A DNA stretch of 53,640 nucleotides from Acidimicrobiaceae bacterium. GTDB taxonomy: Bacteria > Actinomycetota > Acidimicrobiia > Acidimicrobiales > Bog-793. The notes under the pieces were generated by a model. The model was not told the DNA's origin and searched no databases. It saw nothing but the letters and a program-made list of their open reading frames with translations. Of this stretch, positions 27,911-34,482 are shown in pieces. The stretch spans positions 1 to 53,640 of the forward strand of contig DAHUXW010000058.1 of NCBI GenBank assembly GCA_027306925.1. Direction: 5' to 3'. The stretch's first letter is position 1; every line of letters starts with the position of its first letter. Position numbers and translations under genes: made by a program.

Positions 27911-29584
27911 TCAGCAGGCCCGTGGGTCGTAGGGGGGGACGGGCGGCGTCGCGGACGTCGGCGCGCTGAAGTTCGGGTTCGTCGTGTTCGTGACCGGCAC
28001 CGCGGTCGAGGCCGTCGTCGCGCCAGGCGCCGTCGAGCCGACCGCGCCCGTCTTCGCGGCCGCCGGCGCCGGCGAGGCGACGGTCAGGTCCGATCCCGCG
28101 ACCACGCTGACGTCGGCTCCCGCCGCCGGCGTGCCCTGCCCGAGCACGACCGTCCCCGAGAGGGATGCCATCACGCGCTCGGCCTGGTCGAGGTGGCCCG
28201 CGGCGTAGCGCACGGTCGTCTCCGACACCGGCCCGACGTACTCGGACTCGGACGACGGCACGATGCGGTAGCCGAGCGCGCGGAGCCGCGCGGACGTCGC
28301 CGCGGTCGCGGCGGGCGAGTTCGTGCCGTCGACGACGGAGACGGAGATCGACGCCGGGTGGAGCGCGAGTCCCGGTGCGGGGTGCCCCATGAACTCGGCG
28401 ATCGTCCGTGAGTCCTGCGGCTGGGTCGGGAACACGACGTCGCCGTAGTTGTAGCCCTTGTAGTAGTAGGTCGCCGCGTTGACGACGATCGGCGCGGTGA
28501 GCTGCGGCGCGGTGCCGAAGTCGGCGTGCCGGAAGTCGAGCGCGAGCCGGAGCATCTCGGTGACGCCGAAGGTGCTGTCGACCGTGAGGTCCGGAGCGAT
28601 CGCTCCGATCAACGCGTTGTCCGTGAGCGGGTTGCCGAGCCCGCGCTTCGCGATCTCCGACGCGAGGACCCGGACGAACGCGTGCACTCTCGTGATCCGG
28701 CCGAGATCGCCCGACCCGTCGTAGTGACCGCCGGAGTCCGGCGTGTAGTAGGTCCCGGCGACACCCGCGGCGCGGATCGCCGGGACGTTCATCTTCTGGC
28801 CCTTCGTGAAGTAGTAGAGGTGGCGCGAGCGCACGAGCTCGAGCGCCTGGACCCCGTTCAGGTACTGGCAGCCCGTCCGGGTGATGTCGAGGTCGGAGTT
28901 CGCGTCGTAGAGGCGGTCGGGGAAGTACATGCGGATGCCGCCGAGCGCGCTGACGACGTTCGCGAACGTGCCGAAGTTCAGCTCGACGAAATGGTTGATC
29001 GGGATCCCGAAGTCCTGCTGGATCGCGGCCGCGAGCTGGTTGGGACCGTCGACGAGCGACGCGTCGATCTTGTTGTAGAGCCCACCGGCGCGCGCGCCGG
29101 GCACGAAGGTGTCCCTCGGGATCGAGAGCAGCGTGACGCGGTGGTCGGCCGGGACGAGCCGGAGCACCATGACGACGTCGCTGTTGATCCCGGTCACGCC
29201 CGCCTTGCACTGCGCGACGAAGTTCGCGAGCCCCTTGACCGCGCACCGGTTCGTCGAGCCGATGAGCAGGATGTTCTCGGTGGGTCCCGTGACCGTCGTC
29301 GGCGTGAGGTGGTGCGCGGCGACGCGGTGGATCTGGTGGATACGGTACGCGCCGTACCCGGTCACGGCGCCGGCCACGACGACGACGACGAGCACGAGCC
29401 CGATCGCCGTCCTCGTGAGGTTGCGGCGGAGCCTGCTCCGGCCGGCGACGCGGGCGCGCCGCCTCGCCCTCCAGCCGGCGCGGGGCGCCGCGTGCCCGCC
29501 CGTCGCGTCGCCGGACGCGCCCGCGCCCGCGCTCGGCCCGAGGTCGTCGGGGTCGTCGTCTCCGGGCTGTTGCTCGTCGGCCAT
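27911..29584 (-). CDS. LytR-CpsA-Psr (LCP) family ligase with LytR_C domain
   Basis: 557 residues: a basic cytoplasmic N-terminus, one transmembrane helix (about 58-80), the LCP catalytic domain (NILLIGSTNR, GINSDVVMVLRL, TLLSIPRDTFVP with the key Arg, and ELVRSRHLYYF), then a C-terminal LytR_C domain (SVSVVDGTNSPAATAATSARLRALGY). LCP enzymes attach lipid-linked glycopolymers such as arabinogalactan or teichoic-acid-like chains to peptidoglycan. ATG 29584 is chosen over an upstream TTG because TAGCTT precedes it at 8 nt. The SGNH and MBOAT genes upstream suggest an acylated cell-wall polymer. Confidence 0.9.
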   Translation of the reverse strand: MADEQQPGDDDPDDLGPSAGAGASGDATGGHAAPRAGWRARRRARVAGRSRLRRNLTRTAIGLVLVVVVVAGAVTGYGAYRIHQIHRVAAHHLTPTTVTGPTENILLIGSTNRCAVKGLANFVAQCKAGVTGINSDVVMVLRLVPADHRVTLLSIPRDTFVPGARAGGLYNKIDASLVDGPNQLAAAIQQDFGIPINHFVELNFGTFANVVSALGGIRMYFPDRLYDANSDLDITRTGCQYLNGVQALELVRSRHLYYFTKGQKMNVPAIRAAGVAGTYYTPDSGGHYDGSGDLGRITRVHAFVRVLASEIAKRGLGNPLTDNALIGAIAPDLTVDSTFGVTEMLRLALDFRHADFGTAPQLTAPIVVNAATYYYKGYNYGDVVFPTQPQDSRTIAEFMGHPAPGLALHPASISVSVVDGTNSPAATAATSARLRALGYRIVPSSESEYVGPVSETTVRYAAGHLDQAERVMASLSGTVVLGQGTPAAGADVSVVAGSDLTVASPAPAAAKTGAVGSTAPGATTASTAVPVTNTTNPNFSAPTSATPPVPPYDPRAC

Positions 29585-29592
29585 GGGCGCCA

Positions 29593-29598
29593 AAGCTA
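29593..29598 (-). promoter_or_regulatory. Leaderless -10 box (TAGCTT)
   Basis: TAGCTT ends 8 nt before ATG 29584 of the LCP gene. Confidence 0.4.
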
Positions 29599-29648
29599 TC
29601 GAGTGGTGTGTCCGCCGAGGACGCGGCCCCGCGACGCGCCGTCGGGGA

Positions 29649-30764
29649 TCAGAGCTTGACGTGCCACGCGCGCTCCATCGCCTTCACCGCGTACCCCCCG
29701 ACGAGATCGGTGCCGCCCGGCGGGTCGATGTGGATCTCGTCCGGGTCCCGGACCTGCACGAGACCGCTCCCGGGGACGTCGAGGTAGGTGGAGTAGTGAC
29801 CCGCGGGGTCCTCGAACAGTCGCTGCGTCGACACGTAGGTCACGCCCGGGTGGGTCTCGGCCTGCGCCGCGTAGATCGCGTTCTCGCGCGCGACGTCCAC
29901 GTTCGACAGACCGGACGTCGGCCCCATGACCGGCATGCCGACCCAGAGCACTCGCGCGCCGCTCGAGGTCGCCTCGCTCATGAGCTGCGCGACCCGCTGC
30001 GCGTAGATTCGCGACCAGGCGGGCGTGCCGAGCTGGACGACCTGCCCCCCCGCCTCGAACGACTGGACGTCGTTGCCGCCGAGCATGACGACGACAACCT
30101 GCGGGTGGTAGGTCGCGATCTTCCGAGGTAGCTCGACCAGCCAGTCGTAGTAGCCGATGTTCGCAAGCCCGGTGTCGCCGACCGAGGCCTGGACGACGTT
30201 CACGTGCGGTGCGCCCGCGAGCACGTTGGCGAGACCGATGCCGAGGTCCTCGCCGATCGAGTCGCCGATGTCGAGGATCGTGAGCGGGTGCGCCGCGCTC
30301 GGCTGGGCGAGCGGGGCGGGCCCAGGCGCCGTCGTCGTCGTGGTCGTGCCGCTCCGGGTTGTCGTGGTCGTGCCGCTCCGGGTCGTCGTGGTCGTCCGCC
30401 CCCTGGGCGGGAGCGTCGTCGCGGGGAGCGTGGTGGTCGGCGGGGGTGGAGGAGGGCCGACCGCGGAGCCTCCAGGGCTCCCCTGCTTGCCGATCACGCG
30501 GTTCACCCCGTCGACGAGGCGGTCGAGGCCGAGCGCATCCTCGACGCGCGCCACCGGGTGCGTGATCGCCATCGAGACAGAGCGCCGGGTGCCGATCGGC
30601 GAGCTCGTCGCCGACTGGTAGAGCTCGCGCGCGTCGAACAGGAACCACGCGCCGAAGGCGACGAGCCCCACGCCGATGACCCGGCCGGCGCTCGCCAGCT
30701 GGCTCCCGGCGCGCCGCCGGGGCGCGCCCGCAGGCCCGACCGGTCCGCGCCTCGCTCCCCCCAT
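29649..30764 (-). CDS. DUF459 SGNH hydrolase, membrane-anchored
   Basis: 371 residues: one N-terminal transmembrane helix (about 28-44), a Pro/Thr-rich spacer with three runs of Thr (about 110-147), and an SGNH esterase/acyltransferase domain from residue 160. GDS with catalytic S169, the GGND block and the final DEIHID (Asp/His) are all present. The domain faces outside. The MBOAT gene ends 15 bp upstream; MBOAT plus SGNH pairs transfer acyl groups onto extracellular polysaccharides, as in alginate O-acetylation. GAGGTGA lies just before ATG 30764. Confidence 0.85.
   Translation of the reverse strand: MGGARRGPVGPAGAPRRRAGSQLASAGRVIGVGLVAFGAWFLFDARELYQSATSSPIGTRRSVSMAITHPVARVEDALGLDRLVDGVNRVIGKQGSPGGSAVGPPPPPPTTTLPATTLPPRGRTTTTTRSGTTTTTRSGTTTTTTAPGPAPLAQPSAAHPLTILDIGDSIGEDLGIGLANVLAGAPHVNVVQASVGDTGLANIGYYDWLVELPRKIATYHPQVVVVMLGGNDVQSFEAGGQVVQLGTPAWSRIYAQRVAQLMSEATSSGARVLWVGMPVMGPTSGLSNVDVARENAIYAAQAETHPGVTYVSTQRLFEDPAGHYSTYLDVPGSGLVQVRDPDEIHIDPPGGTDLVGGYAVKAMERAWHVKL
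30337..30400. repeat. 24-bp tandem repeat encoding Thr runs
   Basis: GTCGTGGTCGTGCCGCTCCG-type units start at 30337 and 30361, with a partial copy at 30385. They encode the Thr5-Arg-Ser-Gly spacer of the SGNH protein. Copy number is likely variable. Confidence 0.8.
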
Positions 30765-30778
30765 CGTCACCTCCGCGC

Positions 30779-32215
30779 TCAGAACTTGTAGTAGATGAAC
30801 GGCGCGACGCCCGGCGGCCCGAGCGTCGTGATCACGAGCAGCGTGGCGCCGACCGCGGCTCCCTGCGCGACCGCGGACATCCGGCCGAAGACCTCCCGCG
30901 CTCGCGCGGACCAGCCGTTCGGCACGAACTGGAGCGCGAGCGAGCCGACGATCGCCGCGACGACGGGCAGGCGGACGAGCGGGTCGGGGCCGGACCACGC
31001 GGTGACAAGGCGCGAGATCATCGTGAACGCGTCGTTCACGGTCGCCGAGTCGAAGAAGATCCAGCCGATGCAGACGACGTGGAACGTCGCGAGCCGCTGG
31101 AGCCACACGGCGATCGGGCGCTCGGACTGGGGCGTGAGGCCCCGGGCGATCCGGCGCTGGCGGTGCCAGTGCCCGGTGCACTGCGCGACGCCGTGGATCG
31201 CGCCCCAGATCACGAAGGTCCACGCGGCCCCGTGCCACAGGCCGCCGAGCACCATCGTGACCATGAGGTTGCGGTACAGCATGCGACGCGACCCGCGGCT
31301 GCCACCGAGCGGGATGTAGAGGTAGTCGCGCAGCCAGAACGAGAGGGTCATGTGCCAGCGCCGCCAGAACTCCTGCATCGATCGCGCCGTGTACGGCACG
31401 TCGAAGTTCTGCGGGAACTGGAAGCCGAGGAGCAGCGCGCAGCCGATCGCGATGTCCGTGTAGCCGCTGAAGTCGCAGTAGATCTGGACCGCGTACCCGT
31501 ACGCGGCGAGCAGGATCTCGGGCGCCGAGTGGACGCTCGGAGCGTCGAAGACGGGCTGGACGATCGCGGTCGAGACGTAGCTCGAGATCACGACCTTCTT
31601 GAACAGCCCCCCGAAGATGAGGAACGTCGCAGTCGGGAGGTCGATCGCGCGCGGGTCCCGCTGGCGCGAGCGCGCGATCTGCGGGAGCAGCTCCGAGCCG
31701 CGGACGATGGGCCCGGACAGCAGGTGGGGAAAGAACGACAGGTAGACCGCGACGTCGACGAACGGCGCGGGCTCGAGGTCGTGGCGGTAGATGTCGATGA
31801 CGTACGACATGGCCATGAACGTGAAGAAGGAGATCGCGACCGGGACCGTGACGTCGAGGAGCCCGATGGGCGTGCCGCCGACACCGAGGTGGTGCAGCGC
31901 GTTGTCCACGCTCGCCGCGAAGAAGTCGGCGTACTTGAAGAAGCCGAGCAGACCGAGGTCGGCGGCGACTGCGAGCACGAGGACGCGCTTTCGCACCCGA
32001 GGCGAGCGCGAGGCGTGGATGAGCCGGCCGGCGACCGCGCTCACGATCGTCGACACCGCGAGCAGGAAGATGAACCGCCAGTCGTACCAGGCGTAGAAGA
32101 CGTAGCTGGCGAGGATCGCGAATAGCTTCCAGCGCAACGCGAACGGGGCAAGGAGCCAGTTGCAGACGAAGACGACCCCGAAGAAGATCGCAAAGTCGGT
32201 CGTCGGAAACAGCAC
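30779..32215 (-). CDS. MBOAT family O-acyltransferase (AlgI/DltB-like)
   Basis: 478 residues with about 11 hydrophobic helices and the MBOAT core: QIYCDFSGYTDIAIG, FWRRWHMTLSFWLRDYLYIPLGG and the catalytic His in LGGLWHGAAW. Such proteins pass an acyl group from a cytoplasmic donor to an extracellular acceptor or to an SGNH partner, here the DUF459 protein encoded next. GTG 32215 has GAGGAG 6 nt upstream and begins at the first helix; the frame continues 19 codons upstream without conserved features. The substrate is probably a wall polysaccharide; which one is unknown. Confidence 0.92.
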   Translation of the reverse strand: MLFPTTDFAIFFGVVFVCNWLLAPFALRWKLFAILASYVFYAWYDWRFIFLLAVSTIVSAVAGRLIHASRSPRVRKRVLVLAVAADLGLLGFFKYADFFAASVDNALHHLGVGGTPIGLLDVTVPVAISFFTFMAMSYVIDIYRHDLEPAPFVDVAVYLSFFPHLLSGPIVRGSELLPQIARSRQRDPRAIDLPTATFLIFGGLFKKVVISSYVSTAIVQPVFDAPSVHSAPEILLAAYGYAVQIYCDFSGYTDIAIGCALLLGFQFPQNFDVPYTARSMQEFWRRWHMTLSFWLRDYLYIPLGGSRGSRRMLYRNLMVTMVLGGLWHGAAWTFVIWGAIHGVAQCTGHWHRQRRIARGLTPQSERPIAVWLQRLATFHVVCIGWIFFDSATVNDAFTMISRLVTAWSGPDPLVRLPVVAAIVGSLALQFVPNGWSARAREVFGRMSAVAQGAAVGATLLVITTLGPPGVAPFIYYKF

Positions 32216-32294
32216 GTCACTCCTCAGCGCGGCGATGGCCCGAGCACCCCGAGTCGAGCACACTACCGGCACGCTCCGGGGTCGTCACCGCGAC

Positions 32295-33500: not shown

Positions 33501-33788
33501 TCAGCGATCCGGGAACGGGAGCCTCGGCTCCCGATCGTCCCGCGCCGCCTCGCGCGCCAGGCGGCGGGCGTGGCGCCCGTCGACCCACGGCGTGATCTCG
33601 AGCCGGTACGCGGTTAGGCCGATCCGCTCGCTCAGGCGGGGCTCCTCGACGAACCCGATCGAGTAGCGCGCGCCGCAGCGCGGGCACGCCCGCCTGACCG
33701 GTGCCGCCGACACCGCGAGCCGCAACGCGCGCACGCCGTGGCACGGGAGCACGCGGCTCCCGACGATCGTCGCGGTCGCGCGGGTCAC
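33501..33788 (-). CDS. Small CxxC protein of unknown function
   Basis: 95 residues. A CPRCG knuckle (about 35-39) with an earlier Cys/His pair (C15-H16) may bind zinc, and a C-terminal half rich in Arg follows. GTG 33788 lies 10 bp after the S4-ASCH stop, so the two are probably one transcript. TAGAAC overlapping that stop could also act as a -10 box. No family recognised. Confidence 0.5.
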   Translation of the reverse strand: MTRATATIVGSRVLPCHGVRALRLAVSAAPVRRACPRCGARYSIGFVEEPRLSERIGLTAYRLEITPWVDGRHARRLAREAARDDREPRLPFPDR

Positions 33789-33798
33789 GCCAGCGGTT

Positions 33799-34482
33799 CT
33801 ACTCCCCGGCTGTGACGGGGTCGACGATTCGGAACCACTCGACGACCACCGGCGAGTCGTCGTCGAGCACCCAGCCGGGCTCGCCCAGCGCGGCACGCAC
33901 GTCGGGAAGCGATCCGCCCCACTCGTGCTCGCGCGCGTCGCGCCACTCGCCGGCGTCGGCGAAGCCCTCACCTTCGGCGAGCGCGACGTCGTCGCCGACG
34001 TCAGCGAGGCGGCACACCTCGACCCGGACGATCTCGACCGACGCGAGGCGCTCGCCAGCGCTCCCGACGAGCGTCGAGCGGTCACCCGGGCGCGGCGGCG
34101 CGATCTCGGCGATGCGGTAGAAGACCTCGGGGCTCGTCGCGGCGGTCTTTTGGCCGCGCAGCGCCGCGGCGACGAGCCGGTCGCGGCGCGGTCCGGGGTC
34201 GCCGAGCGCGTACCCGGCGCGGTCGGACCCGCCCTCGCGCCCTGCGACGCGCACCTCGACGCCGCCGACGGAGACGACGTCGCCGACCTCGAGGCGGCGG
34301 CCGCGCCGCGTCTCCTCGACGCCGTTCACGGCGACCTCGCCGGCCGCGAGCAGCGGTCGTGCCTCGGAGCCGATCGCGACGAGGTCGGCGAGCTTCAGGA
34401 ACTGACCGAGGCGGATCCCGCCGCCGCCGACCGCGACCTCGCGCACGCCCGGCTCCGCACGGGGCGTCCGCGGCTGGCCCAT
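33799..34482 (-). CDS. S4 RNA-binding domain fused to ASCH domain
   Basis: 227 residues. Residues 22-80 form an S4 domain of the RlbA/YaaA type (GGGIRLGQFLKLADLVAIGSEA, LLAAGEVAVNGVEETRRGRRLEVGD). Residues 88-222 form an ASCH domain (RLVAAALRGQKTAATS, ALAEGEGFADAGEWRDAREHEW), the fold of the N4-acetylcytidine amidohydrolase YqfB and of RNA-binding PUA-like proteins. K112 and the EGEG acidic cluster match the usual active-site positions. The fusion implies action on RNA or a modified nucleotide. ATG 34482 has a TACGAT box 6 nt upstream. Confidence 0.8.
   Translation of the reverse strand: MGQPRTPRAEPGVREVAVGGGGIRLGQFLKLADLVAIGSEARPLLAAGEVAVNGVEETRRGRRLEVGDVVSVGGVEVRVAGREGGSDRAGYALGDPGPRRDRLVAAALRGQKTAATSPEVFYRIAEIAPPRPGDRSTLVGSAGERLASVEIVRVEVCRLADVGDDVALAEGEGFADAGEWRDAREHEWGGSLPDVRAALGEPGWVLDDDSPVVVEWFRIVDPVTAGE

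Follow-up and report, generated by a model that had tools for sequence, protein, structure and literature searches.

The S4–ASCH gene and its neighbours

In the window, by which we mean the whole stretch of 53,640 nucleotides that was analysed, a minus-strand frame running from 34482 to 33799 is free of internal stops and translates to a protein of 227 amino acids in which an S4_2 domain is followed by a linker and an ASCH domain (Table 1). Both domains lie above their Pfam gathering cut-offs, S4_2 (PF13275) with 67.1 bits against 24.6 and ASCH (PF04266) with 32.9 bits against 21.2; the fusion proposed in the sequence-only reading is therefore real at the level of domain profiles, including the ASCH assignment of its C-terminal part.

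The true start of the gene is probably the GTG at 34446 and not the ATG at 34482. In the alignment the column of this GTG holds Met in 18 of 28 stand-alone S4 proteins and in two of three fusion proteins from a second genus of the same family (g16), the third having a GTG codon there; this GTG also follows a GGAG at a distance of 6 nt. This assignment is a judgement because the fusion's frame stays open for 814 codons, far upstream of the gene. Between 33799 and 36210 long open frames overlap on both strands, among them a plus-strand frame of 761 amino acids that begins antisense to the fusion, at 33925, and includes the MFS gene; these opposite-strand overlaps are likely an effect of high GC content and not additional genes.

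Seven neighbours were scanned by family: a CDP-alcohol transferase, an MBOAT protein, a DUF459/GDSL protein, a LytR protein, an MFS transporter, a response regulator and one protein without a family. A kinase and a phosphatase-like gene near the fusion were named by eye. Each of the three g16 contigs carries homologues of these two genes and of the response regulator, on the same side of its fusion as in the window, and in one contig the last of these genes is truncated where the sequence ends; in the window the MFS gene intervenes between the fusion and the two-component genes. The two-component, MFS transporter and envelope neighbours give no RNA or translation context. The envelope genes themselves (LytR-CpsA-Psr, DUF459/GDSL hydrolase and MBOAT acyltransferase; 27911–32272, minus strand) possibly form one acylation unit.

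Immediately downstream of the fusion a gene encodes a small protein that contains a single CxxC pair and a PCHG stretch; by eye it resembles a zinc ribbon, and its Pfam match lies below the cut-off. Homologues were found at the same locus in the only other genome of the window's genus that was compared (G001) and downstream of the fusion in two g16 contigs. In both of these an opposite-strand gene, of PNPOx type by Pfam in one (L155) and similar by eye in the other (L154), lies between the fusion and the CxxC gene, and the third contig ends before this point; a conserved fusion–CxxC operon was rejected on these grounds.

Table 1. Coordinates of the fusion gene, its parts and the adjoining CxxC gene.
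Feature	Coordinates	Strand	Description	Basis
S4_2–ASCH fusion gene	33799..34482	-	227 aa; start more likely GTG at 34446 (215 aa)	translation, Pfam, alignment
S4_2 RNA-binding domain	34246..34419	-	residues 22–79; conserved RRGR motif	PF13275, E 1.3e-18
Linker	34180..34245	-	residues 80–101; residues 80–92 poorly conserved	comparison with g16
ASCH domain	33823..34179	-	residues 102–220; 3s9x/1t62 type	PF04266, E 1.1e-7; profile
Motif G110-Q-K112-T-A-A115-T-S117	34132..34155	-	other rows mostly GxKxxTx[SGA]; YqfB KxxTxR	
R184 codon	33931..33933	-	position is His in 14/14 other ASCH rows	alignment
CxxC protein gene	33501..33788	-	95 aa; GTG start 10 nt past the fusion stop	Zn_ribbon_19, E 0.23

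The S4 half and the linker

Across 29 aligned S4 sequences 22 columns are invariant, including R59, R60, G61 and R62, and the S4 half of the fusion retains both the LGQFLKLAD and the RRGR stretches that are invariant in the family. Among PDB sequences it matches 1p9k (E 0.0034), which is annotated as a hypothetical protein and is presumably YbcJ. From its family membership, RNA binding by this half can reasonably be expected.

In keeping RRGR and scoring above the Pfam cut-off the domain is like the S4_2 family (PF13275; NCBIfam YaaA/RlbA and YbcJ models); unlike the family members YaaA and YbcJ it has an ASCH domain attached and falls below the equivalog cut-offs, with 53.7 bits against a required 84.75 for YaaA/RlbA (TIGR02988) and a score below the cut-off of the YbcJ model as well. 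The yaaA gene sits beside recF, a pairing also found in the model name of TIGR02988; neither dnaN nor recF is present among the seven scanned neighbours of the fusion. By the NCBIfam cut-off the domain is not an RlbA/YaaA equivalog, and the 'RlbA-type' label first attached to it is a loose one.

Within the linker, residues 80–92 are identical to the g16 proteins at only 2–3 of 11–12 positions. An AF2 model of the protein is good in the S4 half (pLDDT 79–92 by block over residues 11–80) and poor in the ASCH half (mean pLDDT 58.4 and pTM 0.39 for the model); its alignment held S4 sequences besides the window's protein and no deep ASCH alignment.

The ASCH half and its pocket

On its own the ASCH part matches the PDB sequences 3s9x (E 9.3e-6) and 1t62 (E 1e-4), and a profile of 15 ASCH sequences (A2) extends these matches to almost the full length of the domain (E 8.7e-29 for 3s9x and 1.4e-25 for 1t62). 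We take 3s9x and 1t62 to be Ef3133/YhfF-like; no assigned activity or ligand was found for ASCH proteins of this type. The domain shares with them its Lys and the EGEG and WR..HE motifs, and differs in being fused to S4 and, in the window, in lacking the motif His and the Thr three residues after the Lys. Because the ASCH half was modelled poorly, its pocket is placed by sequence alone.

Thirty-two positions of the domain are near-invariant, each being conserved in at least 12 of the 14 other ASCH sequences. The window's domain departs at five of these (T115A, L118P, L129P, T152V and H184R), two of the changes being to proline, by comparison with none in the three g16 fusions and 0 to 8 in the other sequences. 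Since five departures fall within this range, fast decay of the window's ASCH domain was rejected as a description; judged from the alignment, the count alone is not unusual, and what is striking is the lost His. This His of the WRxxHE motif is present in all 14 other sequences and in both 3s9x and 1t62, and is Arg (R184) in the window, where the codon may have been missequenced or misassembled. The Lys (K112) is invariant among the family sequences compared. The five departures do not prove a loss of activity in the window's domain, and the g16 domains may be active.

YqfB, an amidohydrolase of N4-acetylcytidine and a stand-alone ASCH superfamily protein of 103 residues, was compared with the fusion given its known catalytic residues. 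According to the YqfB study these are Lys21 as the base, Thr24 as the nucleophile (Ser also works), Glu74 as the acid and Arg26 in the oxyanion hole, and replacing Lys21, Thr24 or Arg26 by Ala leaves the enzyme inactive (PMC6972931). The ASCH profile reaches YqfB weakly (E 0.88), and in this match Lys21 aligns with K112 and Glu74 with E170. The Thr24 position is A115 in the window, by comparison with Thr in 13 of the 14 other sequences and Ala in one (G582); the Arg26 position is S117, and none of the 14 others has Arg there (Ser in 7, Gly in 5, Ala in 2). The active-site-like Lys and acidic residues first ascribed to the domain are there (K112, E170 and E172), and the Thr nucleophile and oxyanion Arg of YqfB are unmatched. 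On these alignments kinship of function with YqfB looks weak for the window's protein and less weak for the g16 copies, which keep Thr at the nucleophile position.

Distribution and origin of the fusion

Among 60 genomes of relatives, the window's own included, ten contain a match to the protein and four of these match over both domains: the window's own genome and three species of g16, whose proteins are 60–61% identical to it and all pass the Pfam cut-offs for both S4_2 and ASCH. The fusion is not an artefact, since three species of a second genus carry it near the same two-component genes. Between the genera the two halves are similarly conserved (38–39 of 58 residues identical in S4 and 81–83 of 128 in ASCH), and in both, identity is higher at codon positions 1 and 2 than at position 3; by this measure both halves are under constraint.

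A profile built from the four fusion sequences was used to assess how rare the architecture is, with up to seven candidates scored per genome in order, class and phylum samples that overlap one another. Matches over the full span were found in 4 of 35 family genomes, in 3 of 397 genomes of the order (a sample that did not include the third g16 species), in 1 of 395 of the class and in 1 of 396 of the phylum; in every sample these were the same four genomes, all of them drafts that are 81–98% complete. As far as searched, the fusion is confined to two genera of one family, and the search for S4 plus ASCH suggested by the sequence-only reading has thus returned a rare architecture. In its own genome the fusion is the sole S4_2 match and the sole ASCH match, and ASCH occurs in only six of the 35 family genomes, four of which are those with the fusion. 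A tree of 17 ASCH sequences contains a fork of exactly the four fusions (92/91, just below the starred level), which fits a single origin of the fusion; set against the nearest stand-alone ASCH group alone, the four received 95/99.

Each half is also found by itself. Named genomes were scanned in the stretches that exactly matched one of six peptide patterns, and the best 80 of 424 relatives found in this way, including Actinoplanes, Frankia and Nocardioides, all match mainly over the S4 part; this is not a full census as the g16 genomes are absent from the list. Open frames read by eye at nine of these best 80 loci encode S4 only, and a profile scan of the fetched flanks of the best 80 of the 424 found no ASCH gene, so that at these loci no adjacency of S4 and ASCH genes prefigures the fusion. 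Conversely, dozens of places matched in the phylum sample cover the ASCH part of the profile only, and 13 frames taken from these show no S4 by eye.

ASCH domains of this type join other partners too, as is indicated by a 328-aa frame (L108; G362:C1:147090-147473) that combines a mycothiol-S-transferase/DinB domain (PF04978, E 2.1e-45) with ASCH (E 3.4e-17). A stand-alone ASCH gene in another genome (L157; G008:C22) lies near a frame that by eye resembles a PIN toxin of the VapC type. A phage or plasmid origin of the fusion was considered and rejected: no phage record matched, and 12 plasmid records matched in the ASCH part only. Three scans of viral contigs gave no confirmed relative of the fusion, PADLOC assigned it no family, and the PHROGs collection produced two weak hits (E 0.011 and 0.081).

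In G001 the S4 part lies at the same locus, flanked on one side by the matching response regulator and MFS genes and on the other by the gene of the CxxC protein, and the ASCH stretch is missing within a single contig; no ASCH match was found anywhere in this genome, which is 85% complete. Given that the g16 fusion lies near the same genes, it is simpler to suppose that G001 has lost ASCH. Faulty assembly may also explain the gap, but the fault would then have to sit inside the contig. As S4 stands alone at this locus in G001, the lineage can do without the ASCH half. Around the S4 genes of three further family genomes with S4 only (G017, G026 and G032) none of the window's other tested genes was found, two of the contigs being short.

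Discussion

The domains of this protein are known and their combination appears to be unreported. A full-text literature search, which lay outside most subscription papers, found no description of an S4–ASCH fusion, in keeping with the initial impression that it is uncharacterised; one paper names both superfamilies, as separate entries of a table. What we describe appears to be a lineage-restricted architecture of two RNA-related domains.

Our preferred reading, to which we give a probability of roughly 0.45 and which is accordingly tentative, is that the fusion would be a lineage-specific accessory RNA-binding factor whose S4 half anchors it to RNA, with an ASCH pocket that binds and an ASCH half that the lineage can dispense with. 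It would have originated by one joining of an S4_2 domain, which stands alone in many actinobacteria, with an ASCH domain of the 3s9x/1t62 type. Through its S4 half the protein would be kept on structured RNA, the likeliest being the rRNA of a ribosomal subunit, and the ASCH pocket may add a second contact with a single-stranded stretch or a single nucleotide. That second contact is proposed by likeness to EOLA1, an ASCH protein which, in its structural report, is argued to bind without cleaving (PMC6803910). In the window's species the pocket probably binds and does not catalyse, since the domain has changed at several of its near-invariant positions.

Use of S4 as an RNA anchor, predicted here for the fusion, is a feature of RqcP, Hsp15 and YlmH, which one study describes as S4 factors of the 50S subunit; these are other S4 proteins with other partner domains, YlmH for instance coupling S4 to further RNA-binding domains (PMC11317155). 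According to the same study, overexpressed YaaA and other S4 proteins failed to replace RqcP in Bacillus subtilis (PMC11317155), and S4 domains are therefore not interchangeable. YaaA has been proposed to act in 50S assembly, and its pneumococcal homologue is reported to migrate chiefly together with 30S proteins (PMC7196914). A point against anchoring on rRNA is that membership of S4_2 does not require binding to the ribosome.

An alternative that we hold to be unlikely is that the ASCH pocket senses a small ligand or nucleotide and switches RNA binding by S4 while making no contact with RNA itself. The many ASCH-only matches in the phylum, together with the ASCH-free flanks of the best 80 of 424 named S4 loci, fit a ligand-binding role that was independent and was joined to S4 later; set against this, the search for a ligand of the 3s9x/1t62 type found none.

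It is improbable that the fusion is a weak ribonuclease of the ZmASCH type, aimed by S4 at structured or ribosome-bound RNA. ZmASCH belongs to the ASCH superfamily, as does the fusion's domain, and according to its report it binds nucleic acids and cuts single-stranded RNA, with Tyr47, Lys53 and Ser128 contributing to binding and cleavage (PMC5615036); the fusion's ASCH domain also carries the Lys that is invariant in its own family. ZmASCH is, however, absent from the three PDB sequences that the ASCH profile reaches up to E 1, which makes it a distant subclass, and for EOLA1, another ASCH protein, binding alone has been argued.

More improbable is an accidental and nearly neutral joining in which S4 does the work and ASCH is a passenger in the course of being lost. 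The S4 part without ASCH in G001, and the loss in the window of a His present in all 14 other sequences, would both be expected of a passenger; but ASCH is conserved about as well as S4 between the genera and shows the same codon-position constraint, and none of the 32 near-invariant positions has changed in g16.

We would assign a low probability to a mixed case in which the g16 fusions are rRNA-anchored enzymes or readers of a so far unknown base modification and the window's copy binds only; S4 would then place the ASCH pocket over one ribosomal nucleotide. A YqfB-like amidohydrolase tethered to RNA, deacylating cytidine in rRNA or tRNA, is very doubtful: against the weakly aligned Lys and Glu and the Thr kept in g16 stand A115 and S117 at positions of which Ala mutants of YqfB are inactive, the result that no PF13718 acetyltransferase (the writer of ac4C) was found in the genome by a search whose control run detected the family in 3 of 14 named genomes, including E. 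coli, and a report which states that YqfB-type enzymes bound no tRNA, ssRNA or ssDNA and favours free nucleosides as their substrates (PMC9599836). The same observations leave without support the original proposal that the protein is an enzyme whose target is a modified base in structured RNA.

ASCH proteins occur widely, and for most of them no role is known. Their joining to S4 suggests that at least one uncharacterised type of ASCH domain works on or beside structured RNA. Seen in these searches only in two genera of one family, the fusion is a clue and not a widespread system, and it offers a ready construct for finding that RNA.
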